DNA of 64,000 nucleotides, taken from the NCBI RefSeq assembly GCF_014202335.1, contig NZ_JACHGP010000002.1, positions 434,001 through 498,000 of the forward strand, given 5' to 3'. This DNA is from Mycobacterium sp. AZCC_0083. GTDB taxonomy: Bacteria; Actinomycetota; Actinomycetes; Mycobacteriales; Mycobacteriaceae. Made by a program: the position numbers and the translations under genes. A model generated the notes under the pieces. It saw only the letters and a list, made by a program, of their open reading frames with translations, did not search any database and was not told where the DNA came from. Shown here piece by piece: positions 26,558 to 64,000 of the stretch (position 1 is the stretch's first letter; the number at the start of each line of letters is the position of its first letter).

Positions 26558-27862
26558 GTGGCTGCGGACATCAAGACCCGATCGCACTGGCTGATGGGCT
26601 ATGGACTGTCCCGCGCGACGATGAAGCTGCTCGCTCGCCAGGGTGATCCGTTTGCCCAATTGATGATCGACAGCAGCCAGCCCGAGAACGTGTATGACCT
26701 CGTCGAGCAGGTCCGCCAGCGGGGGCGGATGTCCCCGGTCGTCGGCAACGGGTGGGTCACCGCTGACGCGCAGATTGTCCGTGACGTGCTACGCGACGGC
26801 AGGTTCCGGACCCTCAAACCGAAGGACCGGTCACCATTTCACGTCGTACAGCGGATGCTGGCGAAAACCAATCCCGGCGTGCTCAACGCCACCGAACCGC
26901 CGTCCCTGCTCGTCACTGATCCACCCGAGCATGCACGGTTGCGACGCCTGGTTTCGCGGGCATTCACCCCCCGCGCGATCGACGGGCTTCGTCGCCGCAT
27001 CGAGGAGATCTCCAGCACCCTGCTCGACGATCTGAGTGACCGCACCCAGTGTGATTTGGTCGCCACCTACGCTTCGCAAATCCCGATCGAAGTCATCGCC
27101 GAGATGCTGGGCATACCCCGCGACGAGATAACGCACCTCTACGCATTCGCCGACCCCGGCACCAAACTGCTCGCCGACACGGCCGTCTCTTGGCACGACT
27201 TCCGCACCGCCATCGCAGCGTTGCGCGAGTTCGAAGACTACATCGCCGCGCACATCGAGCGGCTCCGACGGCGCGGCGCCGACGACAGCATCTTGTCAGC
27301 CGTCAGCGATCTCACCGACAACGAAGTCCGGATGTTCGCGGGGCTGCTCCTGGGTGCCGGGTTCATCACTACGGCCCATGCATTCGGTAACGCAGTCGTG
27401 GCACTCGTGGGTCACCCCGATCAACTGGCACGGCTCCAGGCATGTCCCGAGGGCTGGCCCAACGCCGTCGAGGAGGTGCTGCGCTACGACTCGGTCATCC
27501 AAATCGCTGCCCGGGTGGCCACCGAGTCAATTCACATCGACGACTACACCGTGCAGAAGGGATCGGCCATCGTCCTGCTCGTCGGCGGCGCCAATCGTGA
27601 TCCCGCCGTCTTCGAACGTCCCGACGAATTCGACACTGCCCGTGCCAACGCCCGCGACCACATCAGCTTCAGCACCGGTATTCACGTCTGCCTCGGTGCC
27701 CCGCTCGCTCGCATGGAACTGCACATCGGCCTGCGAGCACTGTTCGAACGCTTCCCCCAACTAGCCCTCGCCGGCGAACCCACACTGAACGACAGCACCC
27801 TGCTGCACGGAATCAAACACTTGCCCGTCCACCTCGGACCCACGAGGGTCACCGCCGGCTAG
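26558..27862 (+). CDS. Cytochrome P450, CYP140-like
   Basis: A 434-residue soluble P450. The ExxR motif is EEVLRYDSVIQIAAR, and the heme loop is FSTGIHVCLGAPLARME with the Cys ligand. The N-terminus (HWLMGYGLSRATMKLLARQG) and the segments PPSLLVTDPPEHARLRRL and FTPRAIDGLRRRIEE resemble M. tuberculosis CYP140. In the I helix the usual A-G-x-E/D-T reads LGAGFITTAHAF, so the acidic residue of the proton relay is Ile. It is the first gene at the left end of the lipopeptide-type locus and could hydroxylate the acyl chain or a residue, but that link is inference. Confidence 0.92.
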   Translation: MAADIKTRSHWLMGYGLSRATMKLLARQGDPFAQLMIDSSQPENVYDLVEQVRQRGRMSPVVGNGWVTADAQIVRDVLRDGRFRTLKPKDRSPFHVVQRMLAKTNPGVLNATEPPSLLVTDPPEHARLRRLVSRAFTPRAIDGLRRRIEEISSTLLDDLSDRTQCDLVATYASQIPIEVIAEMLGIPRDEITHLYAFADPGTKLLADTAVSWHDFRTAIAALREFEDYIAAHIERLRRRGADDSILSAVSDLTDNEVRMFAGLLLGAGFITTAHAFGNAVVALVGHPDQLARLQACPEGWPNAVEEVLRYDSVIQIAARVATESIHIDDYTVQKGSAIVLLVGGANRDPAVFERPDEFDTARANARDHISFSTGIHVCLGAPLARMELHIGLRALFERFPQLALAGEPTLNDSTLLHGIKHLPVHLGPTRVTAG

Positions 27863-27894
27863 CAGTCCGCAAAGCCGACAACCAGGGAGTAGCC

Positions 27895-28218
27895 GTGCCG
27901 ACGCTGTACGAAGTCGTCAACTACCACTCATACGCCGAGTTCATGAGCGTGTACAACAGCTCCGACGCGTCGTTGATCATCAATGACCTATTGCTCCGGT
28001 CGTTGGGGAACTACGACACGACAACACGTTTCGCGATCGCCAGCCAGCTCCTCGACGACGGCGCTGACCCGGCAGCCCAGTACGAGATAGGGCACCGCTG
28101 GTCGCCCGGATGGACGAGTATCTACGCGATCGATGACGCCCCAGCACACCAGCGCGGACCGATTACAAGATGCCCGTGCCCTGAGCCACGAACGCGAATC
28201 CCACCAGCGTCAGGATAG
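27895..28218 (+). CDS. Hypothetical protein, probably 3'-truncated
   Basis: A 107-codon frame with GTG start after gggagtag, 32 bases behind the P450. The first 65 residues look like a real protein: LYEVVNYHSYAEFMSVYNS, SLIINDLLLRSLGNYDT and RFAIASQLLDDGADP, the last resembling an ankyrin-type helix pair. The tail (APAHQRGPITRCPCPEP) is Pro/Arg-rich and overlaps the 3' end of the convergent Gap-like gene by 56 bases. I suspect a gene cut short by rearrangement. Confidence 0.5.
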   Translation: MPTLYEVVNYHSYAEFMSVYNSSDASLIINDLLLRSLGNYDTTTRFAIASQLLDDGADPAAQYEIGHRWSPGWTSIYAIDDAPAHQRGPITRCPCPEPRTRIPPASG

Positions 28219-28951
28219 CTACCAGGATCGGTGTGCGATAGCCACCTACCCAGTCATGTACCAGCCGCAGTGCCGCTTGGGTTTTGGTCGGTGCGAGCAC
28301 ATTGCTGATCAGCACGATCTCGACGACCGCGAGGCTCACGACGACGAACACGACCGCGGCGCCGATCTGCGCGCCGATCACGGCCCCCGACGCCAGGATC
28401 GTGGCGAGCGAGAACATGACAAGGGAAGGGTTCGGCCCCGCCCAGAAGCCGATCACGAACGCAACCCACAAAGCGCCGCTCTCCCACGCCCTGTGGGCGC
28501 GCCTCAGCAGTCGCTGCGTGGCCGATGCGCCCTTCGCCGGCGCATCCTGGCCCCGCTTCAACAAACGCGAGATGGGCGACGACGCGTCCGAATCCGCAAC
28601 CGCGGTCGTTGTTTTGGCGTCCCGGGCCCGCCGACGTGTCACGAAGCGCACCGCCATCAGGGCCGCGATCGCCAGCACCAGTACACCCAGGAAGATTTCG
28701 ACGCGCCGGACGGTGGAACTCGCAGTGGTGGCGGGATTGGCCAAATCGTGCGCGAAGGACGAGAACAACGGCGTGAAGTGCAGCACCAGAAGCGGGACCA
28801 ACAGCAAGACGAAGCTCGCGCTCACGCAACCGATCCAATACACCAGCAGGTTTTGCGCAGGGCGTGGCCTGGAGATCAGCAGAAGATTGACGCCGAGACG
28901 TACCGGGTCGAGTGCGATCGGAAGTGCCAGCACCGCCACCGAACTCCACAT
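28163..28951 (-). CDS. Gap/Sap-family membrane protein (lipid-addressing)
   Basis: A 262-residue protein with six membrane helices: VAVLALPIALDPVRLGVNLL, VYWIGCVSASFVLLLVPLLV, IFLGVLVLAIAALMAVRFV, ALWVAFVIGFWAGPNPSLVM, IGAAVVFVVVSLAVVEIVLI and TPILVAILTLVGFAFVAQ. A charged cytosolic loop (RRRARDAKTTTAVADSDAS) separates helices 3 and 4. The family includes Gap of glycopeptidolipid export and Sap of sulfolipid export, which work with MmpL transporters. Here it is 75 bases downstream of the FAAL gene on the same strand, probably in one transcript. The ATG at 28951 is used; a TTG three codons upstream is possible. Confidence 0.88.
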   Translation of the reverse strand: MWSSVAVLALPIALDPVRLGVNLLLISRPRPAQNLLVYWIGCVSASFVLLLVPLLVLHFTPLFSSFAHDLANPATTASSTVRRVEIFLGVLVLAIAALMAVRFVTRRRARDAKTTTAVADSDASSPISRLLKRGQDAPAKGASATQRLLRRAHRAWESGALWVAFVIGFWAGPNPSLVMFSLATILASGAVIGAQIGAAVVFVVVSLAVVEIVLISNVLAPTKTQAALRLVHDWVGGYRTPILVAILTLVGFAFVAQGTGIL

Positions 28952-29026
28952 TGCCGACAACCTACCGCGCCCCGTCCGTCGCCGAACAAGCCGCGTCGCG
29001 ATGGCTTCGACTGTGGTGCAACGGGT

Positions 29027-30781
29027 TCACGAATCCAGACGATCGAATTGACCGTGCCGGTACTGCTCGACACACGACGCCCGTCTGACCTTGCCGCTGG
29101 TCGTGATCGGTATCGAACCCGGAGGCACCAGAACCAGATCCGCGATGCTGAGTCCGTGCGTGTTGAACACCGCCGACGCCACTTCGCGCCGAACGGCGAC
29201 CAGGTTCTCCGTCACCTCGTCGTCCGACGCGCCGCGCTTCTTCTGCTCGATGATGGTGACGAGTTTCTCCGTTTGACCGTCCGCGACCGATATCGCCGCG
29301 ACACGGCCTCCGGTGATCTCCTGGATCGTCGCCTCGATGTCGTCGGGGGCGTGATTGCGTCCGTAAACGATCAGAAGGTCCTTGATGCGTCCGACGATGA
29401 ACAGCTCACCGTCGGAGATGAAGCCGAGATCTCCAGTCCGCAGCCAAGGGCCTTCCGGCGTGCCATCCGACGGACCGACCAGCACGCCCCGGAAGGTGTC
29501 GTCAGTCTCTTGCGGTTTGCCCCAATACCCTTCAGCGACGTTGCCGCCGTGCACCCAAATCTCGCCCGTCGTCCCCGCCGGACACTCGGTGCTGGTGTCG
29601 GGATCCACGATCCGCACCACCGGGGCTTCCGGTTCGCCGTAACTGATCAGCGCGGTACCTCGCCCACCCACGAGCGGCTTCGCGTGCCCATCGGATAGTT
29701 TCTCGGCGTCGAAGTGAACGACTTTCGGCGGCTCACCCGGTGCCCGGGTGGATACGTACACCGTCGCCTCCGCAAGTCCGTAGGACGGTCGGACCACCGA
29801 CTCCCGCAGATTGAAACGGGAGAACCGCTGGGTGAAGCGGCGCAGGGTCGCCGGGTGCACGCGCTCACTACCGGTGACGATGATCAACACGTCCGAAAGA
29901 TCGAGGCCTGTCATGTCCTCGTCCGAGGTCTTGCGCGCCGCCAGTTCGAACCCGAAGTTCGGACCCGCCGTGTAGACGTGCCTATTGCTCGCCATCAACT
30001 GCATCCACCGCGCCGGCCGCTGCAGGAAGGCAACCGGGCTGGTGAGAACGGTGCGCAGCCCCAAGATGACCGGTGCACATATGCCAAGCAGCAAGCCCAT
30101 GTCGTGATAGAAGGGCAGCCACGACACGATGGTGGTGTCCGGCGGCGGAACCTTGCCGTAGTCGGCGAAGTAGCCGGCCATCAGTTGGTCGAAGTTGGCC
30201 TGAACGTTGTCGTGCGACATCATGACGCCGGCCGGCTGCCGGGTCGAGCCGGACGTGTATTGCAAGTACGCCGTACTGCCGCCGTCCACCTCGGCGTGAG
30301 GACCGGACCGAGAGTCTCGGCTCAGCAGGTCGACCTCGACCGGGGCCGCGCCCGAGTCCGGCCCGAGGTGTTCGGCGACGATGCCTGCGACCGCGGACGT
30401 CGTCAGCACCGCGGTGGGTGACGCGTCGCGGAAGACCAGACCGACACGCTCATCGATGGCGCCACCGAGCGGTACCGAAAGCGGAATCGCAATGCGACCC
30501 GCCTGCAGCGCGCCGAGAAACGCCACCACGTAATCGAGCCCTTGCGGCGCCAAGATGGCGGCGCGGTCACCCACGGACCCGCGAAGAGCAAGCTCCTTGG
30601 CAACGCTTGACGATCGCTGATACAGCTGCGACCACGTCAGCGACTCGGGGTCGCCTTCCCAGTTCCGGTCGTAATCGATGAAGGTGACCGCTACGTCGTC
30701 CGGCTGCAAACTGGCGCGCTCGCGCAGAACGGCGGGGATGGAAGCCTCAATCACGTCCGTCAGGTTACCGCGAGCAGTCAC
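29027..30781 (-). CDS. Fatty-acyl-AMP ligase (FAAL), FadD23-like
   Basis: A 584-residue ANL-family enzyme that activates a fatty acid as acyl-AMP for transfer to a PKS or NRPS carrier. Motifs: [20 protein letters not shown] (ATP loop), [55 protein letters not shown], and [19 protein letters not shown]. These track M. tuberculosis FadD23 closely, and the sequence has the FAAL-type segment after the ATP loop. C-terminal [17 protein letters not shown] holds the catalytic Lys. It is divergent from the PKS, as fadD23 is from pks2, and followed by the Gap-like gene. GTG 30781 is a likely start; TTG 30787 also fits. Confidence 0.93.
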
Positions 30782-30873
30782 TGCCAAAGCGCTGTGAAAA
30801 ACGGCGTCTCAGAACCCAACGTGCTCAGGGTCTGGACCCAGCCGCCGCGGTCTATCGTTGTCGCCGTGACACG
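30782..30873. promoter_or_regulatory. Short divergent promoter region between FAAL and PKS
   Basis: Only about 90 bases separate the two divergent starts, so both promoters must overlap here and the two genes are likely expressed together. I see no strong palindrome in it. Confidence 0.5.
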
Positions 30874-33800
30874 GTGCCACGCCAGGGAGCGGTCAAGGTT
30901 GTGAGTTGGTCTTCGGCGTCGGCCGATCATTCGTCCGCGACGAGCGTCGCACCAGTTACCCCAGTTGCCGTCATCGGCATGGCGTGTCGACTGCCAGGCG
31001 GCATCGATTCACCAGAGCAACTTTGGGAAGCGTTGCTGCGTGGCGATGACCTGGTCACCGAGATTCCGGCCAACCGCTGGGACGCCGATGACTTCTACGA
31101 TCCCGAGCCCGGCATGCACGGCCGGTCGGTCTCCAAGTGGGGCGCCTTCCTCGACGACGTCAGCGGCTTCGACGCTGAGTTCTTCGGCATCAACGAGCGC
31201 GAGGCGACATCGCTCGATCCGCAGCATCGGCTGCTGCTTGAGACTTCCTGGGAAGCCGTCGAACATGCCGGTCTCACACCGGAATTGGTGACGGGCTCGC
31301 TGACCGGTGTGTTCGTCGGACTGACTCACGTCGACTATCAATTGGTGGCCGCCCAATCCCCCACCATGGAAGGGCCATACGGCTTTCAGGGCAACAGTTT
31401 CAGCATGGCGTCAGGGCGGATTGCCCATGCCCTGCGTGTACACGGTCCCGCCGTCACGGTCGACACCGCCTGTTCGTCGAGTCTGTTCGCCGTGCACATG
31501 GCGTGTCGCAGCCTCAACGATGGCGAAAGCGACCTCGCCCTGGCGGGTGGTGCGTACGTGATGCTGGAACCGCGCAAGTACGCTGCGGCGTCGGCGCAGA
31601 GCATGCTGTCACCAACGGGACGCTGTCGTGCGTTCGACGCGGCGGCGGACGGATTCACCTCCGGCGAGGGTGTCGCCATGGTCCTGCTCAAGCGCTTGCC
31701 CGATGCGTTGCGCGACGGCGATCGGATCCTGGCCGTGGTGCGTGGCACCGCGGCGAATCAGGACGGCCACACCGTGCACATCGGGACGCCATCGCAACGG
31801 GCGCAAAGCGCCGTGTACCGAAAGGCGCTGGCCGCGGCCGGTGTTGACGCCAACACGGTCGGCATGGTGGAGGCTCACGGCCCCGGCACCCCCATCGGTG
31901 ACCCCATCGAGTACGCGAGCCTGGCCGAGGTCTACGGCATCGATGGCCCCTGCGCGCTCGGGTCGTCGAAGACCAACTTCGGCCATACCCAGTCGGCCGC
32001 AGGGGCACTCGGACTCATGAAGGCCGTCCTCGCGCTACAACACGGATTGGTGCCGCAGAACCTACACTTCAACCGGTTGCCTGACGCGCTGGCCCGCATC
32101 GACACCAAACTCTTCGTACCGCAAGAGGTTTCACCGTGGACCAGCAACGGCGGCCAGCCCCGCCGCGCGGCGGTGTCGAACTACGGGCTTTCTGGAACCA
32201 ATGTCCATGCAGTGTTGGAGCAGGCGCCGACATCCACGGCCGAAGACGAGCCGGATGAGGCTGCGCCACTGCTGTTTCCGCTGTCGTCCAGCTCGGCCGA
32301 CGAGCTGCGTCGCACCGCAGGCCGGCTCGCCGAATGGCTCGGCGCACACGACGACGTGGGGCTGCCCGATCTGGCGTACACACTGGCCCGTCGGCGCGCG
32401 CACCGGTCGGTCCGCACCGCCGTCATCGCGCGCGACAAGCCGGAACTCACTGCGGCGCTACGCGAGGTCGCCGAGAACGTCACCCCTTACGGGTCGGCGA
32501 CCGGGTACGACGATCAGGGACCGGTGTGGGTGTTCTCCGGCCAGGGTTCCCAGTGGGCCGGGATGGGAGCTGAGCTTTTGGCGAACGAACCGGTGTTCGC
32601 CGCCACCGTCGCCAAGGCCGAGCGGGTGATCTCATCCGAATGCGGATTCTCGGTGACCGAGGCGATGTCGGCAGGCCAGACTGTGACCGGCCAAGACCGG
32701 ATCCAGCCGACGCTGTTCACCATGCAGGTTGCCTTGGCCGCCATCCTGAAGGCATACGGTGTGCGCCCTGGCGCGGTCATCGGACATTCGGTCGGCGAGG
32801 CCGCGGCGGCCGTCGTCGCGGGCGCGCTCTCGCTGGATGACGGGCTGCGCGTGGTGTGCCGCCGCGCCGGACTGATGTCCCGGGTCGCCGGTGCCGGCGC
32901 CACGGCGTCGGTGCAACTTCCTGCCCAGCAAGTCCTTTCGGAGTTGGCGGTCCGCGGCAAGAACGACGTCGTGGTCGCGGTAGTCGCGTCACCGGAGTCG
33001 ACGGTGATTGCCGGCGCGGCGCCGCTGGTTCGCGAACTGGTCGCGAACTGGGAGCAGCGTGACGTGATGGCCCGCGAGATTCCCACCGACGTCGCATTCC
33101 ATTCGCCTCACGTCGACCCGATCGTCAACGACCTCACCGAGTCACTCGCCGAGCTCAAGCCGATGACGCCGGAGATTCCCTTCTACTCGGCGACGTCGTA
33201 CGACCCACGGGAACAACCGGTATGCGATGCCCGCTACTGGGCGGCCAACATGCGCCGCATGGTGCGGTTCGCCGCGGCGGTGCGCGCCGCTCTGGAGGAT
33301 GGCCACCGAGTCTTCGCCGAGTTGGCGCCCCATCCCCTTCTCACCCACGCGATCGAACAGACCGCCAGAAGCATCGACATGCACCCGGCGATTCTGGCGG
33401 GTATGCGCAGGGATCAAGAACTCCCCCACGGGCTGAAGGAATTCGTCGGCCAACTTCATTGCGCGGGCGCAGCGGTCGACTTTTCGGTGCTCTACCCGAA
33501 TGGGCAGCTGGTGGATGCACCGCTGCCGACCTGGACCCACCAGCGGCTGTGGTTCAGCAACGACGGTGATGAAGGCGCACCGCGCGGCGGTCACACCGTG
33601 TCGGTACATCCCCTGTTGGGTCAACACGTTCGCTTGCAAGAGGAGCCCGAGCGCCACGTCTGGCAGTCCGCCGTCGGGACGGACACCCAACCGTGGCTGG
33701 GCGATCACCAGATCCACGACGTCGCCGTGTTCCCAGGGGCGGCCTATTGTGAGATGGCTCTGGCCGCGGCTGGCACGGTGCTCGGCGAATCCGCCGAAGC

Positions 33801-36800
33801 CCGCGACATCCGCTTCGAGCAGGCATTGCTCCTCGATGCGCAGACCGCGGTCGGTGTCGTCGCATCGATCGAGACGCCGGGCGTCTTCGACTTCGTGGTG
33901 GCGACCAATCAGCAGGGCGAGCAGGTGCGGCATGCCGCAGCCGTTCTGCATGCTGCAGACGACGAACGACCGCCCACGCACGACGTGTCGGGCCTGCTGG
34001 CCGCGCACCCCGACCGCCACGACGGCAGCGTCGTTCGGGATCGGCTTGGCCAGAACGGTATTCACTATGGTCCGGCCTTCACGAGCCTGATTGCCGTGCA
34101 TACGGGTGCGGACGGGTTGGGTACCGTGCTGGCCGAAGTCGCGCCGACCGGGCCGATCCGCGCGGAGCAGGCCGCGTACGGCGTGCACCCCGCGCTCCTG
34201 GACGCCTGTTTCCAGTCGGTCGCCGCTCACCCGGACGTTCAAGCGATCGGCGGGGACGCGCTGGCCGTGCCGACGGGTGCCCGACGCCTGCGCGCCTACG
34301 ACTCGGCGCGCAACGCCCGGTTCTGCTTGACTCGCGTCACCGCCGGTTCCACCGGTATCGAAGCCGACGTCGAGGTGCTCGACCGGCACGGCACGGTGCT
34401 GCTCGTCGTACAGGGGCTGCGATTCTCGACCGGCGCATCCGAGAACGCACGCAAGGACCGGGTGCTGTCCGAACGCTTGTTGACCATCGAATGGCAGCAG
34501 CGCCAGCTGCCCGAGCTGCCCAAGGCCGACGCGGGAACGTGGCTGCTCATCGGCTGTCCCACTGAGGATGTGGTGGTCACCGAGCTGAGCGCGGCACTGG
34601 AGAGCCATGGCGCGCATTGCCTCAGCATGGACTGGCCCCACCACGCCGGTAGTTCGAACGTCGAGACGCTCAGAAACCAATTGCGCAGCGGTGAATTGAC
34701 CGGTGTGGTGGTCGTGACCGGGCCTCGGGACGCCGCAGACGAGCAGAGCGCGCTGCAAGGCCGCGAGTACGTGCAGCATCTGGTGCATGTCGCCAGCGAA
34801 TTGGTGGAGACGTCCGGGGAGCCACCGCGTCTGTACGTGGTGACACGCGGCGCACAGGCGGTGCTCGAAGGCGAGCGGCCCAACTTGGAGCAGGCCGGGC
34901 TGCGTGGCCTGATCAGGGTGATCGGCAATGAGCATCCACCTCTCGGCGCCACCCACGTCGACGTCGACGACGCCGAAGGAGTCGCCGGACTGCTGGCACG
35001 GCAACTTCTCGTCGGGTCGGACGAGGACGAGACCGCGTGGCGAAACGGCCACTGGCACACCGCTCGGCTGTATCCAAGGCCGCTTGGCCCCGAAGAGCGG
35101 CACACCGCCGACGCCGACCCGCAGCGCGACGGAATGCGTCTGCAGATGCGCACACCCGGCGATTTGGAGTCGCTGGAACTCGTTGCCACCGAACGGGTTC
35201 CGCCGGAGCCGGGCCAGATCGAGGTCACGGTTCTGGCGTCGAGCATCAACTTCGCCGACGTGTTGGTGGCGTTCGGCCGTTACCCCTCCTTCGAGGGACG
35301 ACTACCGGAACTGGGCGCCGACTTCGCCGGGGTGGTGACCGCGGTCGGACCCGACGTGACCGACCACGCGGTGGGCGATCACGTGGCAGGTCTCTGCGCC
35401 GACGGCTCTTGGCGCACCTTCCTGACCTGCGACGCGCGCCTGGCCGTCACGCTGCCTGCCGGCCTCTCCGACGCCCACGCGGCCGCGGCGACCACTGCGC
35501 ACGCCACCGCCTACTACGGCCTGCACGACCTGGCCCACCTCACCGACGGCGACAAGGTGTTGATCCACTCCGCGACGGGCGGGGTTGGCCAAGCGGCGAT
35601 CGCCATCGCCCGCGCCGCGGGGGCCGAGATCTACGCCACCGCGGGCAGCGATGCACGTCGAGACCTTTTGCGCAACATGGGCATCGAGCACGTGTACGAC
35701 TCACGAAGCCTGGAGTTCGCCGATCAGGTTCGAGACGACACCCACGGGTACGGCGTGGACGTCGTGCTCAACTCCGTCACCGGCGCGGCTCAGCGCGCCA
35801 GCCTCGAATTACTCGCGTTCGGTGGACGATTCGTCGAGATCGGTAAACGCGACATCTACGGCGACACCCGGATGGGGCTCTTCCCCTTCCGGCGCAACCT
35901 CACGTTCTACGCCGTCGACCTCGGGCTGCTGGCACACAGCCACCCGGACCGGTTTCGGCGACTGTTGACCACGGTGTATCAACTCACCGCCGACGGTTCG
36001 CTGCCGCCGCCCGACTGCACCCACTACCCGCTCTCCGAGGCCATCACGGCCATTCGGGCGATGAGCGGCGCGCAGCACACCGGCAAGCTGGTACTCGACG
36101 TCCCGACCACCGGCCGGGTGCGAGTGGCGGTGCCGCCGGCTCAGGTCGAGGTCTTCCGGCGAGACGGCGCGTACATCGTCACCGGCGGACTTGGGGGCCT
36201 TGGCCTGTTCTTGGCCGATCACATGGCCTCCGCGGGTGCCGGGCGCATTGTGCTGTCCTCGCGGACCCAGCCAACCGCGGAATTGCTCGAGAGGATCGAC
36301 GCCATCCGGGCGAGCGGCACCGACGTCGTCGTCGAGTGCGGCGACATCGCAGAACCCGACACCGCGTCGCGGTTGGTCGCGACGGCGACCGCCACCGGGC
36401 TGCCAGTGCGCGGCGTTCTGCATGCCGCCGGGGTGATCGAGGACGCCATGCTGCCCAACGTCACCGACGATCTGATCGAACGTGACTGGGCACCAAAGGT
36501 TTACGGTGCCTGGAATCTGCATGGCGCTACGGTCGGCGAACCGTTGGATTGGTTCTGCTCCTTCTCTTCGGCGGCCGCGCTGGTCGGCTCGCCGGGGCAG
36601 GGCGCCTACGCTGCGGCCAACAGCTGGCTAGACGCCTTCGCGAGGTGGCGTCGAGATCGTGGCCTACCCGCCAATACCATCGCGTGGGGCGCGTGGGCCG
36701 AGATCGGGCGCGGTACCGCGATGGCGGCGAGCGCCGAGGTTGCCATCGCTCCAGACGAAGGCGCGTACGCATTCGAAGTCCTGTTGCGCCATGACCGCGC

Positions 36801-37185
36801 CTACGGCGGCTACGCCCCGATCGCCGGCACCCCGTGGCTGTCGGCCTTCGCCCAACGCACACCCTTCGCCGAGGCATTCCGCGCCACCAGCAAGAACCCA
36901 GTGGGCGCAAGCAAGTTGCGCGCCGAACTCGACGAACTGCCCCACGACGAATGGCCTTTGCGGTTGCGGCGGATGATCTCCGATCAGGTCAGCGTCATCG
37001 TGCGTCGCAGCATCGATCCGGACCGGCCGCTGCCCGAATGCGGCATCGACTCGTTGGGCGCCCTCGAACTGATCACCCGCATCGAGGCCGAGACCGGAGT
37101 GCGCGTCAGGGCGACGGAGATCACCACCATTCGTGGCCTCGCGGGGCTTCTCTACGAGAAACTCGCACCCGCCGAAACCGCCTGA
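30874..37185 (+). CDS. Iterative type I polyketide synthase, Mas/Pks2-like (KS-AT-DH-ER-KR-ACP)
   Basis: A complete 2103-residue PKS close to Mas (about 2110). KS residues 30-455: [34 protein letters not shown] about 545-860: [34 protein letters not shown] about 910-1200: [22 protein letters not shown] about 1420-1740: NADPH site [21 protein letters not shown] about 1760-1960: [29 protein letters not shown] about 2010-2090: [12 protein letters not shown], phosphopantetheine Ser about 2060. It should extend an acyl primer with full reduction. Mas reads DVASHSPQ where this protein reads DVAFHSPH, and it has GHSVGE; both point to malonyl and not methylmalonyl units. The KS has EAHGPGT instead of EAHGTGT. 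GTG 30874 is assumed; GTG 30901 is an alternative. Confidence 0.95.
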
Positions 37186-37194
37186 CTTGACTTG

Positions 37195-37563: not shown

Positions 37564-37627
37564 TATTACCCCTCCTCGAAGAGACACGCTCTCGCGTTGG
37601 ATGATTCGCCCGGCCAGGCGGGCTCCG

Positions 37628-39504: not shown

Positions 39505-39559
39505 CCGGCCTACCGCGCGGGACGAACCGACAACGCGACCGAAACAGACGGCGTCATTA

Positions 39560-53600: not shown

Positions 53601-56600
53601 AATTCGATACCGATGTCCAGCGAGTCGAACAGTTGGCAGACATTGCGGTGCGTGACGGCCACGCCCTTGGGCATCCCGGTGGTCCCGGACGTGTAGATGA
53701 TGTGAGCCAAGTCCTCGGGGGCGGGCAAGGGCAGCGCCGTGCTGGGCTGCGTGCCGAGAGCGGGGTCGGCCAAGTCATCGAGGTCGATGAAGTTGACGCC
53801 GTACCCGGCGAACCGGTCCGCCTGATCACTCGTCGTGACCGCGGCGACCGGCGCGGTGTCGGCGAGCATGAATTCGATGCGCGCCGACGGCAGCGCGGGG
53901 TCGACCGGCAGGTAGGCCGCACCCGACTTGAGCACCGCCAGGATCGCCACGACGGCCTCGGCCGACCGCGGAAGCATCAGCGCCACAGCCTGTCCCGGTC
54001 CCGCGCCGCGGCTGACCAAGAGGTGAGCCAACCGGTTCGACACCTCGTCGAGTTCGCGGTACGTCAACGACCGTGCCCCGCACACCAGCGCCACCGCCTC
54101 CGGAGTGCGGGCCACCTGCGCGGCGAACAACTCCGGCACCGTCGTTCCTACAGCCGGCTGGGTCAGAACCGCCCGGCCGCCCCAACGATCCAGCTGGGTG
54201 TGCTCATCGGCATCCAGCGCATCCATCGACGACAGCGGCCGTCCCGGGTCCGTGGTCATGGCCGTCAACACCCGTTCCAACCGCTCGATCAACGTCGAGA
54301 CGTCGGCGGCGTCGAATACATCGGTGTCGTACTCGACGCGAAGACTCAGTTCGTGGCCGGGCTGCGCTTGCACCGCCAACGGGTAGTGGGTGGATTCCCG
54401 CGTGGCGATGTCGGTGATGGTCAAGTCGTGCTCGCCTGACAACGCGTCGGTGTCGACCGGGTAGTTCTCGTAGGCGAAGAGAGCGTCGAACAGTCTGTCC
54501 TGACCGGTGATTCGGTGGATCTCACTGAGCGGCATGTGCTGATGGTCGAGGGTGTCGTTGTACGCACTTTGCAGCTGAGTCAGCAGATCCGCGGTAGTGG
54601 TGGTCGCGGTGATGTTCGCGCGCACCGGCACCGTGTTGATGAACAGCCCGACCATTGATTCCACGCCGGCGACTTCGGCAGGCCTACCCGAGACCGTGGT
54701 GCCGAACGCGACGTCATGCTGGCCGGTGAGCCAGCACAACAGCTGCGCGAACGCTGCCTGTAGCACGGTGTTGACGGTGGTGTGGCACGAGCGCGCCAAT
54801 TCGCCGACGGCCCTGGTGATCTCCTCGGGCAGCCCGAACGTGTCAACGCTTCGCCTGCCGTGCTCCAGCCCATCTTGCGGGCCGACCAACGTGGGTGTGT
54901 CGAAGCCGTCGAACAGCTCGCCCCACGCCGCGCGGGCGGCTGCGCGGTCGCGGCCGGCCAGCCACGTGACGAAGTTGCGATAGGGCGCCGCCGCAGGTAG
55001 CCGATGCCCGTAGTAGCCGGCGAATATCTCCCCCAACAGGATTGGCATCGACCACCCGTCGAGCACGATGTGGTGATTCGTCAGCACGAACCGGTATCGG
55101 TCCGCTGCGACGCGGATCAGGGCCGCCCTGAAGGCCGGCTGGCCGGCGAGGTCGCACACCGCGGCACGCTCAGCGGCGCAGAACCGCTGGATTTCCTCGG
55201 CGCCATCGGCGTCGAGTTCGACGTACTGCCAGCACAGCGCGGGATCGGCGGGAATCACTTGCACCGGTTCGCCGAAGCGTTCGGTGGGCAGGAGCGAAGC
55301 GACCGGGGGGATGGGCTGGTAGAAGCGGGCCGCCAGATTCGGATGCCGGGCGACCACCGCGTGCACGGCGGCGCGTAAGCGGTCCTCGTCGAGCCGGCCG
55401 GTCACGCTGATGTCCAGTTGCCCCGCGTACAGGTCGTCGTCGTCGTTCGAAGGGGAGCCCTTGGCGGTGTTGGCGTGAAAGAGCAGCCCTTGCTGCACCG
55501 GCGTCAGGGGAAGCACGTCGGCGACGCGGTGGTGCCGTTGCAGCTCGTCGATCTGCTGCTGGTCCAGACGGGCGGGTGCGATGTCCGACGGCGTCAGTCC
55601 TCCCCCACCGGCTCGCACATGGGCGCAGATGCCAGCCAGCGCGTCGAACCACATTTGGCTCAGCCGGGCGACCTGCGCGTGGTCGAGCGACGACGGCGCC
55701 CATGTCCAGTTGGCGTGCAGCCGAGGTCCGGTCGCGGTGTCGATGGTGCCGGCGTTGAGCTCGAGGGTGTGCATCAGCGGCATCGGAATCGACATCGGGA
55801 TGGCCGCAGCGGCACCGGTTGTCGACCAGCCCTCCCCGATCCGCCAGAGATCGTCGGAGAGCCCGGCCCCACCGAACTGGCGTCCGAGATAGTTGAATCC
55901 GATCGGCGGGTCGGACGCATCGAGGTCGACGTCGGCGTTCAGGTAGCGCAGCAACCCGTAGGTCAGCGTGTCCGGTAGCGCGCGAAGCTGCTCCTTGGCG
56001 TCCTTGAGCGCGGCGCCCAATGCCGCGTCACCGGCGATCACCTGCTGCCAGGACACCCCACCCAGCGATAGGGACACCGGGTACTTGGTGGTGAACCAGC
56101 CGACGGTGCGGGACAGGTCGACCTGATTGTCTGAGCCGTCCAGCTCCTCGTGACGCCCATGACCCTCGACGTCGATGGCGATCGGTACCCCGCCGATGCC
56201 ACTGCCGTCGCCAAGGAATTCCGCAGCCGCCAAGGCGAACCCGATCAAAAGGATGTCCTGCACCCCGGCATGAAACGCTGAAGGGGCCGCGCCCAACAGC
56301 ATGCTGGTCGTCTCGGCGTCCAGCTGCACGGACAGGTGCCCAGCCGTGGCGAAGGTGTCCACGGCGGGTTGCACGGCGGGCAGCAAGGCGGCGGTCCCGG
56401 AAACCTGAGTCACCCGCTTCCAGGCGTCCGCACTAGCCACGACGTCCAGGTGCCGGGCGTGGTCGTTGAGCAGCGCCGCCCAGCGCTGGAACGACGTGCC
56501 ACCCGTCGGCAACGCCACAGGCTGCCCGGCCCGGTGCTGGGCCCAGGCGATGTTCAAGTCCTCCAACAAGATTCGCCAGGACACCGCGTCGACGGCCAGG

Positions 56601-59600
56601 TGGTGAACGATCACGAACAGCTCGCTGGTGCTGGAAACCCACAGCGCGCTGAGCATCGCACCAGTGGCGGGGTTCAGCCGCGACCGCGCTGCCACCAGCG
56701 CCTCGTCGGTGAACGCGTCGACCGTGTGCAGGCACTGACGAGCGTCCACGGTCCCGGTGTCGGGAACCAGCAATGACCACTCGCCGGAAGCACCATCGCG
56801 GTCGACGCGCAGTCGCAGCGTGGCATGCCGATCGAGCAAGGCCTGCAGCACCACCACGACGTCGACCTGGCTGACCCCTACCGGCGCCTGCACCAGGACC
56901 GTCTGGTTGAACTGGTCCACCGGGCCGCCTGCGCTTTCCAGGCTGGCCAGCCACTTGATGATCGGGGTGGCCAGCACCGGCCCGATGCCTTCGTCGACCA
57001 CGCCTGCGGCACGGTCGGCGACCTCCGCCACCCGGGCCAGCCGCGCGACGGTCTGCTCGACGAAGAGGTCGCGCGTCCTGCATGTCAGGCCGGCGGCGCG
57101 CGCCCGCGTCACCACTTGCATCGACGAAATGCTGTCGCCACCAAGGTCGAAGAAGGAGTCATTAACACCAACAGCCGCCGACTCAAGCCCGAGCACCTCG
57201 GCGTAGATGTCTGCCAGGATTTCCTCAACCGCGTTGTCCGGTGCGCGGTATCCGACCGCGATGTATTCGGGCGCAGGAAGAGCACGGGTGTCGAGTTTGC
57301 CGTTGGGGGTCAGGGGCAGCTCCGCGACTGTCACCACCGCGGCCGGAATCATGTAGGCAGGCAGCCGCTCGGCCAGTGCGGCGCGGATCCCGGCCGCATC
57401 GGCCGACCCGGTGACGTAGCCGACGAGGCGCTTGTCGCCAGGGCGGTCCTCGCGGGCGAAAACCACCGCCTGATCCACGCCGGGCAGCCCGGCCAGCGCC
57501 GCACGCACATCACCGAGCTCGATGCGGTACCCGCGGATCTTGACCTGTTCGTCGGCGCGACCCAGGTAGTCCAGCTGCCCGTCGGCGCGCCACCGCACCA
57601 GATCCCCGGTTCGGTACATGCGCGCGCCGGGTTCACCGAACGGGCAGGCCACGAACCGCGACGCGGTCAGCCCGCCCCGGCGCACGTACCCCGACGCCAC
57701 GCCGGCGCCTGCCACGTACAACTCCCCGACCACACCGACCGGGACGGGCCGCAACCAGCCGTCGAGGACGAACATCGCGGCCTTCGGCACCGGCGACCCG
57801 ATCGGCACCACCCCTGGCTCCGGCGTGAGTGGTGCACTGATCGCGGCATAGACGGTCGCCTCGGTCGGCCCGTAGGCGTTGATCATCGTCCGGCCGGGCA
57901 GTGCCCACCGCTCCACCAGCTCGGCCGGGCACGCCTCCCCGGCCACGACCAATGTGATGCCATCCAAACCGGTGGGCGAGAGTGCTCCCGCCGCAGACGG
58001 GGTCTGGCTCAACACGGTGATCTGTTCGGCGACGATCAAAGCGTGCAGGTCTTCCGGTGAACGCGCTATGGATTCGGGCACGACGACCAGCCGGCCGCCA
58101 TGAAGCAACGCGCCGAAGATCTCCCACACCGACACGTCGAACGACAGTGAATGCCATTGCGACCAGACGCCAGTGCTCGGCAAGCCGCCGCCCTTTGATC
58201 CCACCGGGTGCGGCGAGGCCAGCAGCTGGGTGACGTTGCGGTGAGTAACCGCAACACCCTTCGGCACACCGGTGGTGCCCGAGGTGTAGATCAGGTAGGC
58301 GATGTCGTCCGGGCGAGGCGAGGGCAGCGGCGTGGCAGGCTGCGTGTCGACCTCGAGATCGTTCACGTCCAACACCGGTACCTCGAAGCCGTCGAGTCGT
58401 CCCGCCAGATCCGTGCTGGTGATGACCGCGATCGGGGTGGCGTCGCCGAGCACGAACCCGATCCGTGCCGACGGGAGTGCCGGGTCGATCGGCAGGTAGG
58501 CAGCCCCCGTCTTGAGTACCGCCAGTATCGACATGATCGCCTCGGCGGACCGCGAAAACAGGAGCGCCACAGACTGTCCCGGACCCGCGCCGCGAGCGGC
58601 CAGCAGCTGTGCCATCTGGTTGGCGGCCTCGTCGAGTTCCCGGTAGGTCCATGACCGGCCCTCACAGGTGAGCGCCATCGCATCCGGGGTGCGCTCGACC
58701 GCAGCGGTGAACAGTTCCGGAATCGACGCGTCCATTCCCGGCTGGGTCAATGCCGCTCGGTTGCCGATCTCATCGAGGCGCGCGCGCTCCTGATCGTCAA
58801 GCAGATCCACCGACGAGAGTGCCTGACTGGGGTCGTCGGTCATGGCCGTGAGTAGCCGCTGCAACCGTCCGATGAGCGTGACGATGCTGGCGGCGTCGAA
58901 GACGTCGGTGCGGTATTCGACGGTCCCGCCGATCCCCGCGAGTTCGCCGTCCTCGGTCCAGCGTTCCCCGAGTGAGAGTGTCAGGTCCATCCGGGCGGTC
59001 TTGGTGTCCACCGGCATTGGTGTGACCTGCAGGTCGCCGAGGGTCAGGCCTGCTGCGCCGTTCTTGGGGCCACCCCCGAGTCCGGGAAGGTTTTGCCAGG
59101 CCAGCATCACCTGGACCAGCGGGTGATGGGTCAGGCTGCGGGCGGGGTTGAGCCGCTCCACCAGCACGTCGAAGGAGACGTCCTGGTTCTCGTAGGCAGC
59201 CAGGCTGCGCTGCTGCACCTGGTCCAGCAGGTCGATAAAAGTAGGATCACCGGCTGGATAACTCGAAAGGTCGACCCGCAGCACCAGCGTGTTGACGAAG
59301 AAGCCGACGAGGTCGTCGAGCGCGGGATCACGCCGGCCGGCGATCGGAAAGCCAACGGCCACATCGGAAGTGGCGGCGATCCTAGATAGGAGAGTAAGCA
59401 GCGCAGTTTGGACCACCATGAAACTGGTGGCGTCGTGGGCACGGGCCACCCTGGCGATCTGCTGCTGCAGCTCGGCCGGCCACTCGACCGCCACGGTGGC
59501 GCCGCGCTGGTCGGCGATCTGCGGGTAGGGGCGATCGGTTGGCAGCTGCAGCCGCTCGGGTAGCCCGGCCAGCGCATCCTCCCAGTAGGCGAGTTGCCCG

Positions 59601-62600
59601 GCGATGGGACTGTGACTGTCCTGCAGATCGCCGAATTGCGCGCGCTGCCACAGCGTGTAGTCGACGTACTGCACCGGCAGTTCGGCCCATGCCGGCGTTC
59701 GCCCGGCGCATCGAGCGACGTACGCCACGCTCAGATCGCGCGCCAGCGGCGTGATCGACCAGCCGTCGGCGGCGATGTGGTGCACCGCGGCGACCAGCAC
59801 GTGTTCGTCCTCGGCGACCCGGAAGAGGATTGCCCGAATGGGTATTTCGGTGGATAGATCAAAGGCATAGCGCGTCGCTGCGGCTATGGCTTCATCCAAG
59901 GCGTGAGTTCCCCGCGCCGTCGGCCAGTCGATGGCGTCGGTGACTTGCCAGCCGAATTCTGCTCGGTCGACGGGGATTACGACCTGTTGCGGTATCCCGT
60001 CGGGTGCCACGAACAGAGTCCGCAGGCTCTCGTGCCGGGCGACCACGTCGCCCATCGCGGCGCGCAGCGCGTCGGTGTCGAGGTCTCCGGACAACCGCAA
60101 CGTCGTCGCCAAGTTGTAGACCGCCGAGGGACCCTGCAACTGCTCGAGGAACCACAGTCGGGTTTGGGCGAACGACAGCGGAATCACCGCCGGGCGTTCA
60201 CCCGCCACCAGCGGCTCCAGCCACCCCGCACCCACGCTGATGCGAGGCGCCAGCTCCGCGATCGTGGGTTCTTCGAACAGAGTCCGGACCGCAAGGTTGG
60301 CGTGCAGGCTTGCGTTGATGGCGGCAATGAGCCGCATCGCGGTGATGCTGTCCCCGCCGAGCTCGAAGAAGGAGTCGTCGGCACCGACTTGGTCGACGCC
60401 CAGGATTTGCGCGTAGATCCCGGCCAGGATTTCCTCGACTGGGCTGGCTGGCGCGCGGTAGACACCGACGGCGTATTCGGGCGCGGGCAGTGCGCGCGTG
60501 TCGAGTTTTCCGTTGGGGGTCAGCGGCAGCGCGTCGAGCACCATGATCGCGGCGGGGACCATGTAGGCCGGGAGTCGATCGGAGAGTGCGGCGCGCACGT
60601 CGGCCGGATCGGCGTCACCGGTCACGTACCCGATCAGTCGTTTGTCGCCGGGGCGGTCCTCGCGCGCGATCGCGACGGCCTGCCGGACCCCGTCGAGCGC
60701 GCTCAATGCGGCTTGGACGTCGCCAAGTTCGATGCGGTAACCACGGATCTTGACCTGCCCGTCGGCCCGGCCCAAGTACCGCAGCTGGCCATCGGCGCCC
60801 CAGCACACCAGGTCCCCCGTGCGGTACATGCGCTGCCCGGGCGCCCCGAACGGGCATGCCACGAAGCGGGATCCGGTCAACGGCGGCCGGCGCAGGTAGC
60901 CAACACCCAGCCCGGCGCCCGCCACGTACAACTCGCCGACCACTCCTGGCGGCACCGGCCGCAACAGGCCGTCCAGCACGAACAACGCCGCCCCCGGCAC
61001 CGGCGACCCGATGGGCACCACACCGGTTTCCGGCGCGAGCGGGGCGCTGATCGCCACGCACATCGTGGTCTCGGTCGGCCCGTAGGCATTGACCATGACC
61101 CGCCCGAAGGACCACCGGTCCACCACCTCCGGCGGGCAGGCCTCTCCGACCACCACCAGCGTCACCGACTCCAGCCCCTGCGGCGACAGCGCCGCCACCG
61201 CGGACGGGGTCTCGGTCAACACCGTGACCCCTTCGGCGACCAATATCGCGTGCAAGTCCTTTGCCGAACGCGCGACCGCGTCCGGGATCACCGCCACCCG
61301 GCCGCCCCTCAGCAGCGCCCCGAAGATCTCCCACACCGACGCATCGAACGCCAGCGAGTGGCCGTGGCTCCACACCCCGGCCGCAGGCAGACCGGCGTCC
61401 AGCGACCCGAGCAGCTGAGTCACGTTGGCATGAGTCAATCCCACGCCCTTGGGCACACCCGTGGTGCCGGAGGTGTAGATCACGTACGCGAGGTCGTCGG
61501 GGTCCGCTGCCGTGATGCTCGTATCCGGATCGGTGCCGACGGACGGGTCTGCGGGACCCTCGACGTCCACGACTACCCCGACGAATCCAGCCAGCCGATG
61601 TACGAACTCGCCGGTGGTGAGCGCCGCCACCGGTGCCGCGTCCGACAGCACGAACTCGATCCGCTCCGACGGCAGCCCCGGGTCGATCGGCAGGTACGCC
61701 GCCCCGGTCTTGAGGACCGCCAGAATCGCCGTGATCGCCTCGGCCGACCGAGACAACAGCAGCGCCACACACTGTCCCGGACCGACGCCGTGGCCGGCCA
61801 GCAAGTGCGCCAACCGGTTCGACGCCGCATCCAACTCTGAGTAGGTCATCGACCGGCCACTGCCACTGACCGCCACCGCCCCCGGCGTGCGGGCGACGTG
61901 AGTGGCGAACAGCTCCGGAATCGACGGATGTGCCGCCGGTTGGGTCAGCACCTCGCGATTGCCAATGGCATGAAGACGCACGCGCTCCGGTTCGGCAAGC
62001 AGATCCACCGACGACAACGCCCGCGTGGGGTCGGCGGTCATCGCGATCAACACGCGGCGCAACCGCTCCACCAACGTCTCGACGCTTGCCGCGTCGAACA
62101 CATCGGTGCGGAATTCGACGATGCCACCGATACCGGCGGGCTCGCCTGTCACGTCCCGGCGTTCGGACAGGGAGAACGCCAGATCCATTCTGGCCGCTTG
62201 GGTGTCGACAGGCAGCGGTGTGACCTCTAGTTCGCCCAAGGCCAATCCGGCTGCGGTGTCATCGTTTTGCCATGGCAGGTTCTGCCAACCCAGCATCACC
62301 TGCACCAGCGGGTGGTGGGTGAGACTGCGGGCGGGGTTGAGCCGCTCCACCAGGACCTCGAAGGGCACGTCTTGGTGCTCGTAGGCGGTCAGGCTGCGGG
62401 CCCGCACCTGGGCCAGGAGCTCGGCGGCCGTGGGGTTTCCGGTCAGGTCGACCCGCAGCACGAGGGTATTGACGAAGAAGCCGACGAGGTCGTCGAGCGC
62501 GGGATCGCGGCGACCGGCGATCGGGAAGCCAACGGCCACATCGGAACTGGCGCTCAGGTTGGACAACAGCACCGCTAGGGCGGCCTGTATCACCATGAAG

Positions 62601-64000
62601 CTGGTCGCGTTGTGCTCACGGGCCATCCTGGCGATCTGCTGCTGCACCTCGGCGGGCCAATCCACCTCGACCGTGGCGCCGCGCTGATCGGCCACCCGCG
62701 GGTACGGCCGATCCGTTGGCAGGTCGAGATGTTCCGGTATGCCGGCCAGGGCGTCTTCCCAATAGGCCGCCTGCGCGGCGATCGGGCTGTCGGGAGCATC
62801 GAGTTCGCCAAGTTGCGCGCGCTGCCACAGCGTGTAGTCGACGTACTGCACCGCCAGCGGGGCCCAACCGGGCGCGTGCCCGGCACACCGGCTGGCATAC
62901 GCCATTCCCAGATCGGCAACCAAGGGCCGCAGCGACCATCCATCGGCGGCAATGTGGTGCACCACGGCCACCAGCATGTGTTCGTCGTCGCTCGACCGGA
63001 AGAGGCTGGCCCGCAAGGGGATTTCCGCGGACAAATCGAAGGCGTACTGTGCCGCCGCGCGGACGGCGTCGGCGAGCCGGTCTTCGGGCCATTCACCGGC
63101 ATCGACCGTTTCCCAGCCGACGTCGACCTGTTCGGTGGGAATGATCACCTGCGCAGGAACGCCGTCCGTCGAGGTGAAGACGGTGCGCAGGCTTTCGTGG
63201 CGGGCGACCACATCGGAAAGCGCCGCGTGCAGCGCGTCGGCATCGAGCGGCCCGCGCAGCCGCAGCGCCACCGCCATGTTGTAAACCGGTGACGGGCCTT
63301 GCAATTGGTCGACGAACCACAGTCGGTTCTGGGCGAACGACAACGGAATGGTCGCGGGCCGCTCCCCCGCCAGCAACGGCTCCCGGGGCGACGCGCCCTT
63401 GCCGACCCGCGGCGCCAACCGGGCAACAGTGGGCGCCTCGAACACCGTCCGCACCGGAAGGTCGACGCCGAGGGCGGCGTTGATCGCCGCAATCAGGCGC
63501 ATCGTCGACAGTGAATCCCCACCGAGGTCGAAGAACGAGTCATCGACCCCGACCCGTTCCACTTCGAGCACCTGCGCGTAGATGGCGGTCAGAGTCTCCT
63601 CGATTGCACCGTCCGGGGCACGGTAACGCGCAGCGTCCTGGTAATCCGGCGCAGGCAGCGCACGAGTGTCCAACTTGCCGTTGACCGTGACGGGCAGCAC
63701 CGGCAACCCGACCACCGCAGCGGGCACCATGTACGCAGGGAGATGCTTGGCCACTGCACTGCGCGCCGCGATTGGGTCAGCGGTACCGGTGATGTAGCCA
63801 ACCAGCCGTTTGTCACCGGGGCGGTCCTCGCGGGCGATCACCACCGCCTGCTCCACCCCGGCCACCGCTGCCAAAGCCGAACGCACGTCACCCAATTCGA
63901 TGCGGTAGCCGCGGACCTTGACCTGCTCGTCGGCACGCCCGAAGTAGTCCAGCTGCCCATCGGGGCGCCAGGACACCAGGTCCCCGGTGCGATACATCCG
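43886..64000 (-). CDS. Giant multimodular non-ribosomal peptide synthetase, 5' end outside the window
   Basis: More than 6700 residues are visible. Order: A (C-terminal part)-PCP, C-A-PCP, C-A-PCP-E, C-A-PCP, C-A-PCP-E, C-A-PCP-TE. The frame is open to the window edge and begins inside an adenylation domain (RMYRTGDLV), so at least one more C/A part lies outside. All six PCP serines (GGDS) and the His-His motifs of all five C and both E domains are present. It assembles a peptide of at least six residues with two D-residues, released by the terminal TE. mmpL follows with a four-base overlap. No MbtH-like gene, starter C domain or tailoring methyl- or glycosyltransferase is in the window. Modules are described separately; n is the partial first one. 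Confidence 0.96.
44036..44100 (-). repeat. Tandem 30-base repeat inside the TE domain
   Basis: Two exact copies of a 30-base unit occupy 44041-44070 and 44071-44100, preceded by a partial unit (ACTTC). On the coding strand each unit reads [10 protein letters not shown] in frame. The inner 18 bases recur at 40803-40820. Confidence 0.92.
44680..47770 (-). other. NRPS module n+5: C(DCL-type)-A-PCP
   Basis: The C domain (about 47770-46460) opens [14 protein letters not shown] and has [11 protein letters not shown], the D-donor class, as expected after an E domain. The A domain (about 46410-44920) has FDFSVWEIW; the hand-read code is D-F-W-T-L-G-A-V-Y-K, not assignable with confidence. PCP Ser is near 44787 ([11 protein letters not shown]). 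This loads the C-terminal residue. Confidence 0.85.
47790..52400 (-). other. NRPS module n+4: C-A-PCP-E
   Basis: The C domain (about 52400-51000) is LCL-like ([24 protein letters not shown]). The A domain (about 50945-49480) has FDVSVWEIF; the hand-read code is D-V-W-T-V-A-A-I-Y-K, nearly that of module n+2, so both probably load the same or similar residues. PCP Ser is near 49344 ([11 protein letters not shown]). The E domain (about 49200-47800) has [18 protein letters not shown]. The residue is epimerised to D. Confidence 0.88.
52430..55540 (-). other. NRPS module n+3: C(DCL-type)-A-PCP
   Basis: The C domain (about 55525-54200) opens [14 protein letters not shown] and has [11 protein letters not shown], the class that accepts a D-residue donor, matching the preceding E domain. 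It carries an extra 12 residues after AARFYQ compared with the C domain of module n+5 (see repeat at 55290). The A domain (about 54150-52670) has FDFSVWEIW; the hand-read code is D-F-W-T-V-G-V-M-W-K, distantly like Thr codes (DFWNIGMVHK). PCP Ser is near 52548. Confidence 0.85.
55290..55310 (-). repeat. Repeat-derived insertion in the module n+3 C domain
   Basis: Contains GAGCGAAGCGAC (55292-55303), also at 40806 and twice at 44041-44100. On the coding strand it gives PPVASLLP inside a segment absent from the sister C domain of module n+5. Confidence 0.6.
55580..60230 (-). other. NRPS module n+2: C-A-PCP-E
   Basis: The C domain (about 60200-58800) is LCL-like ([24 protein letters not shown]). 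The A domain (about 58720-57270) has FDVSVWEIF; the hand-read code is D-V-W-S-V-A-A-V-Y-K, which I cannot assign. PCP Ser is near 57132 ([11 protein letters not shown], the form seen before E domains). The E domain (about 56990-55600) has [18 protein letters not shown] and [15 protein letters not shown]. The residue is epimerised to D. Confidence 0.88.
60280..63380 (-). other. NRPS module n+1: C(LCL-type)-A-PCP
   Basis: The C domain (about 63350-62010) opens [14 protein letters not shown] and has [10 protein letters not shown], consistent with an L-L condensation. The A domain (about 61935-60475) has [20 protein letters not shown] and NAYGPTE. By hand alignment to GrsA-Phe the specificity residues read D-A-W-T-V-V-A-M-C-K, close to known Phe codes (DAWTIAAICK, DAWTVAAVCK), so an aromatic residue is likely. 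PCP Ser is near 60348 ([12 protein letters not shown]). Confidence 0.85.
63440..64000 (-). other. NRPS module n (partial): end of A domain and PCP
   Basis: The A-domain tail shows [25 protein letters not shown] and [10 protein letters not shown]. The PCP Ser is near 63513 ([12 protein letters not shown]). Specificity residues are outside the window. No E domain follows, so the residue is passed on as L. Confidence 0.9.

Follow-up and report, generated by a model that had tools for sequence, protein, structure and literature searches.

Mycobacterium sp. AZCC_0083 (G000; genome of 8.6 Mb in 40 contigs) carries a locus that likely makes and exports an unglycosylated N-acyl octapeptide by way of a nonribosomal peptide synthetase (NRPS), an MbtH protein, an MmpL-family protein, a fatty acyl-AMP ligase (FAAL), a Mas-like polyketide synthase (PKS) and a Gap protein. 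The locus lies in the 64,000-nucleotide stretch that we analysed (the window; G000:C2:434001-498000) and runs on into the next contiguous stretch, L009. The genes named in the initial annotation of the window (P450, Gap, FAAL, Mas-like PKS, MmpL and NRPS) were all recovered with family models and open reading frames (ORFs). Its proposal of a lipopeptide locus with MmpL held, with a starter condensation domain, FAAL, PKS, MmpL, Gap and a terminal thioesterase, though not with the P450 as a member.

An eight-module synthetase with a starter condensation domain

The window cuts the NRPS gene: the minus strand holds the C-terminal 6,704 residues (43886-64000) and the rest lies in L009:1-11475. Joined with this next contiguous 20 kb, the NRPS is a single ORF of 10,529 residues with no internal stop. 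An MbtH gene (PF03621) stands just upstream, at L009:11507-11743; this gene and a starter domain had been named in the initial annotation as things to look for, and both are present, as is the thioesterase that it had described. Pfam models and motif positions divide the protein into eight modules of condensation (C), adenylation (A), carrier (T), epimerase (E), N-methyltransferase (MT) and thioesterase (TE) domains, namely C-A-T-E (module 1), C-A-MT-T (module 2), C-A-T (modules 3 and 4), C-A-T-E (module 5), C-A-T (module 6), C-A-T-E (module 7) and C-A-T-TE (module 8). Epimerases follow modules 1, 5 and 7, the N-methyltransferase lies in module 2, and the first C domain is a starter C. Within the window, all on the minus strand, are modules 4 (60236-63373), 5 (55706-60208), 6 (52436-55543; its C is of the after-E type), 7 (47906-52408) and 8 (43889-47728). 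The TE retains its Ser (GWSFGG), Asp (LDAEP) and His. TIGR01720, which covers the region after epimerase domains, was among the best 25 families for the pieces with modules 1 and 7; the module 5 piece ends early.

As a reference we used GL8P, the glycosylated lipo-octapeptide of Mycobacterium abscessus (MAB_4690c/4691c; PMC11978893). An 18-mer at the start of MAB_4690c, a primer in that paper, matched 3 of 396 genomes, among which G220 was picked out by its fitting size and starter C matches. Its NRPS frames (8,114 and 2,763 residues, stop to stop) and its epimerases (modules 1, 3, 6 and 8) agree with the published genes (24,327 and 8,151 bp) and with the authors' prediction. In a tree of the C and E domains of both synthetases, the module 1 C of AZCC_0083 clustered with the GL8P-type starter C (support 100/100), all seven E domains formed one group (100/100), and the C domains of modules 2, 6 and 8 clustered with the GL8P C-after-E domains (100/99). 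This last group also took in one C-like domain, from the end of the second GL8P-type protein. That second frame (G220, L241) ends in the C-like domain and a carrier motif with no TE motif seen, whereas the GL8P paper annotates a TE.

A dispersed repeat was also noted at the locus. Its core, CCCGTCGCTTCGCTCGCC, has 142 exact copies in the AZCC_0083 genome (reversed control, 0) and is often arranged as 30-base head-to-tail pairs; when seven other genomes were tested, four had 13-50 copies and the remaining three had none. One pair lies in frame within the TE (~44038-44099), where it adds 20 residues that were not found in any of the TEs of 17 relatives, and the repeat also occurs at the MmpL 3' end (~40800-40823).

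The predicted peptide

Adenylation pockets were read at nine positions, for which we assume the GrsA numbering. The G220 pockets, set in order against the published peptide TAFIYLTT, gave a local key: Thr, DFWSVGMVH, DFWSIGMVH and DFWSVGMVH; Ala, DVWSVAAVY; Phe, DVWTAVAMC; Ile, DFWTVGVMW; Tyr, DAESLAAIC; Leu, DFWTLGAVY. In AZCC_0083, the pockets of modules 3 and 6 (DFWTVGVMW) were identical to the Ile key, that of module 5 (DVWSVAAVY) to Ala and that of module 8 (DFWTLGAVY) to Leu. Module 4 (DAWTVVAMC) is Phe-like, similar though not identical, module 7 (DVWTVAAIY) is Ala-like and module 1 (DFWTVGAIY) is Leu-like; module 2 reads DAFLIGAIW. No Thr or Tyr pocket occurs among the eight modules. 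The predicted peptide is acyl-D-Leu-NMe(aliphatic)-Ile-Phe-D-Ala-Ile-D-Ala-Leu. The lack of a predicted hydroxyl-bearing residue fits the absence of a glycosyltransferase, none of which, nor any PapA, was found in a scan of part of the ORFs of the window and its flanks. The initial annotation had described a combination without PapA, a glycosyltransferase or a reductive end; the TE in place of a reductive end was confirmed, and the other two absences hold for the ORFs scanned.

Lipo-octapeptides are a kind already known from GL8P, which together with L5P comes closest among described products. GL8P has the rhamnosylated peptide TAFIYLTT with an acyl chain on residue 1 by the published structure, D residues predicted by the authors at positions 1, 3, 6 and 8, two NRPS proteins, and a locus in which a fatty-acid CoA ligase is named and, in the part available, a PKS is not mentioned (PMC11978893). 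L5P of M. avium subsp. paratuberculosis is D-Phe-NMeVal-Ile-Phe-Ala with a C18-C20 acyl chain and no sugar, which its authors attributed to the lack of hydroxyl-bearing residues (PMC8103206).

It is highly improbable that the AZCC_0083 locus is one of these two described clusters. It does share eight modules, a starter C, MbtH, MmpL and, by prediction, an N-acyl chain with GL8P; compared by published description, its predicted product shares with L5P a D residue at position 1, an N-methyl residue at position 2, Ile3-Phe4-Ala5 and the absence of sugar. Yet its epimerases lie at 1, 5 and 7 instead of 1, 3, 6 and 8, its NRPS is one protein instead of two, its N-methylation differs, no Thr or Tyr pocket corresponds to TAFIYLTT, and the glycosyltransferases of the GL8P locus have no counterpart among the ORFs scanned. 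L5P has five residues, D-Phe first and L-Ala at position 5, unlike the eight modules, Leu-like first residue and epimerase after module 5 seen here.

Glycopeptidolipid (GPL) loci include Gap and MmpL. They resemble the AZCC_0083 locus in having an NRPS and MbtH, but their product has a sugar-bearing tripeptide-amino alcohol core; the four-residue core with a reductive end differs from the eight modules and TE found here, and no glycosyltransferase was seen in the ORFs scanned. The GPL acyl chain is said to originate from a PKS (PMC3537567). None of GL8P, L5P and GPL has the AZCC_0083 module pattern. As to the earlier word "undescribed", no paper on this cluster was found in the open-licence literature (subscription journals are mostly outside this coverage); the word is tempered by the close known kinds GL8P and L5P.

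The Mas-like PKS has malonyl-type acyltransferase residues

The FAAL gene (29027-30787, minus strand) is divergent from the PKS gene (30874-37185, plus strand). Its product scored 960 bits against the NCBIfam fatty-acid--AMP ligase model NF004509 (cut-off 775) and was on this ground classed as a FAAL. Among the 25 models listed for it, the best named FAAL models were FadD28 and FadD21, neither of which reached its cut-off, and FadD23 was not represented. Domain and equivalog models identify the PKS as Mas/Pks2-like, with the order KS-AT-DH-ER-KR-ACP; it scored 3566 bits against the Pks2 equivalog (cut-off 2400) and aligned with MAS along nearly its entire length. The KS, DH, ER, KR and ACP motifs are intact in AZCC_0083 and in the relatives G055 and G261.

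The acyltransferase (AT) departs from MAS, with GHSVGE/DVAFH instead of GHSMGE/DVASH. Val640 (32791-32793, plus strand) occupies the position of MAS Met624, and Phe742 (33097-33099, plus strand), a malonyl-type residue, that of MAS Ser726; these two positions presumably decide between methylmalonyl and malonyl. Among PDB sequences of the MAS AT, 7agp has Met/Ser (as does full-length 9d2y), 7agq Met/Phe and 7agr Val/Phe, the last being the letters of the AZCC_0083 AT. No paper with a MAS AT Val/Phe mutant was found in the open-licence literature. Judged by these residues, the methylmalonyl type is absent from the AZCC_0083 PKS and the malonyl type present instead, and therefore its lipid tail is probably unbranched despite the Mas-like PKS; the methyl-branched tail implied by the earlier Mas-type label was not borne out. 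When 17 Mas-like ATs with 60% identity or more were compared, of which two are partial, DVAFH occurred in AZCC_0083, G055 and G261, DVASH in 12 from other loci, and other letters in G234 and G255.

The Pks2/FadD23 (sulfolipid) and MAS/FadD28 (phthiocerol dimycocerosate) sets comprise a FAAL, a full Mas-like PKS, an MmpL and a Sap/Gap-like protein. The AZCC_0083 set differs from them by its malonyl-type AT residues, by the NRPS and by the lack of PapA among the ORFs scanned. For this PKS, an automatic annotation as sulfolipid synthase would probably be misleading.

Conservation of the cluster in relatives

The MmpL-family protein, a likely exporter (40779-43889, minus strand; family models), begins at a start codon that overlaps the NRPS stop codon, and the Gap/Sap-like membrane protein (SfLAP; PF11139, E 9e-50) is encoded at 28163-28960, minus strand. 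We sampled 297 genomes of the genus. MmpL was found at 72% identity or more in 12 of them, AZCC_0083 included, and five of these 12 hold a FAAL orthologue (75-78%), namely AZCC_0083, G055, G234, G255 and G261. The four nearest FAALs in all 297 genomes (75-78%; next, 72%) were exactly those of G055, G234, G255 and G261. The row NRPS-MmpL-PKS-FAAL-Gap, in the orientations of AZCC_0083, recurs in G055, G234 and G261 (with ~3.3 kb of sequence without identified genes between MmpL and PKS in G261); in G255 the NRPS-MmpL and PKS-FAAL-Gap halves lie on two contigs. The concern of the initial annotation that PKS/FAAL and NRPS might never be conserved together in relatives was thus contradicted by four other species, one of them over two contigs, although conservation does not extend to the whole MmpL family.

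In G157, G206, G149 and G223, the genes GntR, SDR, APH, permease and ACS stand between MmpL and Gap, replacing FAAL/PKS. The same arrangement was seen in G380, G332, M. llatzerense (L014), CBMA 234 (L016) and a metagenome-assembled genome (L012), and G204 has these genes with no Gap detected. Since they are ~85-95% alike among the ACS-type relatives, they may merely be native neighbours rather than an alternative acyl supply. Neither a FAAL orthologue nor Gap was found in G187 and G096. G333 and G148, as partial contigs, were left out of the counts, and G363 was set aside for its long NRPS with a different C-terminal part.

As read from the pockets, the predicted peptide is largely constant across relatives, in which the genes that likely supply the fatty chain are variously retained, decayed or absent. 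In nine relatives, the readable pockets of modules 1-5 and 7 never depart from those of AZCC_0083 by more than two of the nine positions; frame ends cut module 3 in G055 and module 4 in G096. One or two changes are seen in the module 6 pocket of G234, G157, G206, G223 and G149 and in the module 8 pocket of G261 and G234. A single frame holds the NRPS in AZCC_0083, G234, G261, G157, G223 and G149.

In the MmpL tree the ACS-type relatives form one clade (100/100), and the PKS/FAAL holders branch in four places (G261 at the base, G055, G234 with G255, and AZCC_0083). The forks that join AZCC_0083 to the ACS clade (94/94) and G055 to the others (92/90) lie just under the support mark of the tool. 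One gain and two losses would explain this distribution, the state of G388 left aside; it is labelled 'none' on the tree, but its contig ends ~200 bases past MmpL.

We considered the possibility that two separate pathways are neighbours here, FAAL/PKS/Gap making another envelope lipid (e.g. an acyltrehalose, with PapA elsewhere) and NRPS/MmpL a lipopeptide with an ordinary fatty acid. The PKS score above the Pks2 cut-off agrees with this, as do FAAL, Mas-like PKS and MmpL without NRPS matches in the fetched stretch of loci such as L025, L026, L027 and L031, the persistence of NRPS and MmpL without this FAAL, and the position of Gap beside another AMP-forming ligase in ACS-type relatives. Yet order and orientation are kept in the four other PKS/FAAL holders (G255 being split over contigs), the ORF scan gave no PapA, and the AT differs from the methylmalonyl type of all 12 other Mas-like ATs in MmpL-linked loci, though malonyl-type ATs are frequent elsewhere. 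A decayed PKS, as described below, would moreover be useless for acyltrehalose, and yet its carrier serine has been retained, as has the FAAL. We therefore regard separate pathways as unlikely.

PKS-fed NRPSs appear to be recurrent in the genus. G278 (L230-L231), G238 (L232) and G054 (L234-L235) have a related Mas-like PKS (67-71%) directly upstream of an NRPS with a similar starter C, an apparent PKS-to-NRPS hand-over unit. G283 (L228-L229) has a sister cluster, a single row of MbtH, a TE-ended NRPS of six modules that includes a methyltransferase, PKS, P450 and FAAL.

A decayed PKS that keeps its carrier serine

In the sister genomes G234 and G255 the ketosynthase cysteine and the dehydratase and ketoreductase residues of the PKS are gone; the ER cofactor motif is gone in G234 only. 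The carrier serine is retained in both (the G255 PKS is cut by a contig end), next to an intact FAAL. The open frame of such a PKS is weak evidence alone, since at this G+C the opposite strand also yields long frames by chance. By a simple counting estimate (synonymous values ~0.46-1.04), Ka/Ks between G234 and G255 was 0.54 for DH, 0.67 for ER, 0.56 for KR, 0.34 for KS, 0.30 for AT and 0.26 for ACP, as against 0.18 for FAAL, 0.17 for Gap and 0.08 for MmpL. The corresponding PKS values between AZCC_0083 and G261 were 0.33 (DH), 0.18 (ER), 0.17 (KR), 0.12 (KS), 0.15 (AT) and 0.10 (ACP). We infer that elongation was lost in G234 and G255 and that the carrier is still loaded by FAAL; the serine kept beside an intact FAAL suggests that the PKS carrier donates acyl chains to the NRPS.

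If FAAL loads a fatty acid and the carrier is all that matters, PKS elongation could contribute little, or have been lost, even in a PKS with intact-looking residues. G234 and G255 are what this explanation would expect, but the intact catalytic motifs of AZCC_0083, G055 and G261 and the low Ka/Ks between AZCC_0083 and G261 in every domain except DH speak against it, and we consider it quite improbable for AZCC_0083, less probable even than separate pathways.

A possible reading of the whole series, which we hold tentatively and at somewhat less than even chances, is that a largely constant octapeptide synthetase is served by a detachable lipid cassette. FAAL and a malonyl-using Mas-like PKS would be ancestral and lost in one clade, probably in a second; in one sister pair the PKS would have turned into a pseudoenzyme whose sole remaining role is to carry the acyl chain, with FAAL feeding the NRPS directly through it.

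Proposed pathway

For AZCC_0083 itself, we propose that FAAL would adenylate a long fatty acid and load it onto the PKS, which would elongate it with malonyl units and full reduction to an unbranched saturated tail. The acyl chain on the PKS carrier would be handed to the starter C of module 1, and the eight modules, with epimerases at 1, 5 and 7 and the N-methyltransferase at 2, would add the predicted residues. The TE would free the chain; with no predicted hydroxyl side chain, a linear acid or ester is therefore a more likely product than a depsipeptide. MmpL and Gap would carry the product to the envelope.

Several observations weigh against this pathway or its reach. Seven of the 12 MmpL-family genomes lack the FAAL orthologue. 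The module 1 pocket is not identical to the key, and the N-methylated module 2 has no calibrated counterpart in it. Module 6 is more variable, with four differences in G187 and G096, where module 8 has three, and the NRPS lies in two frames in G055, G206, G187 and G096. A wider AT search led us to reject the malonyl-type AT as a rarity of this locus: the 30 best AT matches accompanied by a locus include 28 with DVAFH (AZCC_0083 among them), which is therefore a trait of a wider group, 25 of these 28 being in genomes outside the MmpL-family 12. The starter C was rejected as a tracer of acyl source because its tree does not unite the PKS holders, and for this reason we make no claim of co-evolution. 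The ACP value of 0.26 between G234 and G255 is based on 51 codons, and the psi-KR/linker of the intact PKS gave 0.48 between AZCC_0083 and G055. Finally, five ORFs without counterparts in the G055, G234 and G261 regions separate PKS from MmpL in AZCC_0083.

These five (37195-40757) encode a weak SnoaL-like protein, WrbA, a SnoaL-like protein, MarR and a protein without family, and were rejected as cluster parts. The P450 (26558-27862, plus strand; PF00067), counted as a member in the initial annotation, was rejected likewise, having no match in the same three regions, as was an MFS gene upstream of MbtH, which has no match in the G234 and G261 regions (reaching ~3.5 kb upstream of MbtH).

Significance

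The predicted product is likely a very greasy, unsugared eight-residue surface lipopeptide, exact enough to be testable. Envelope lipids in this genus influence the form of colonies, the properties of the surface and recognition by the immune system. With PKS genes that are intact in some genomes, decayed in others and absent from still others, the locus provides a natural series in which to study the delivery of lipid tails to an NRPS, and the sister clusters suggest that PKS-fed NRPS lipopeptides may outnumber the few described products in the genus. If the detachable-cassette reading is true, this family would change the tail of a surface lipopeptide, more than its peptide, during evolution.

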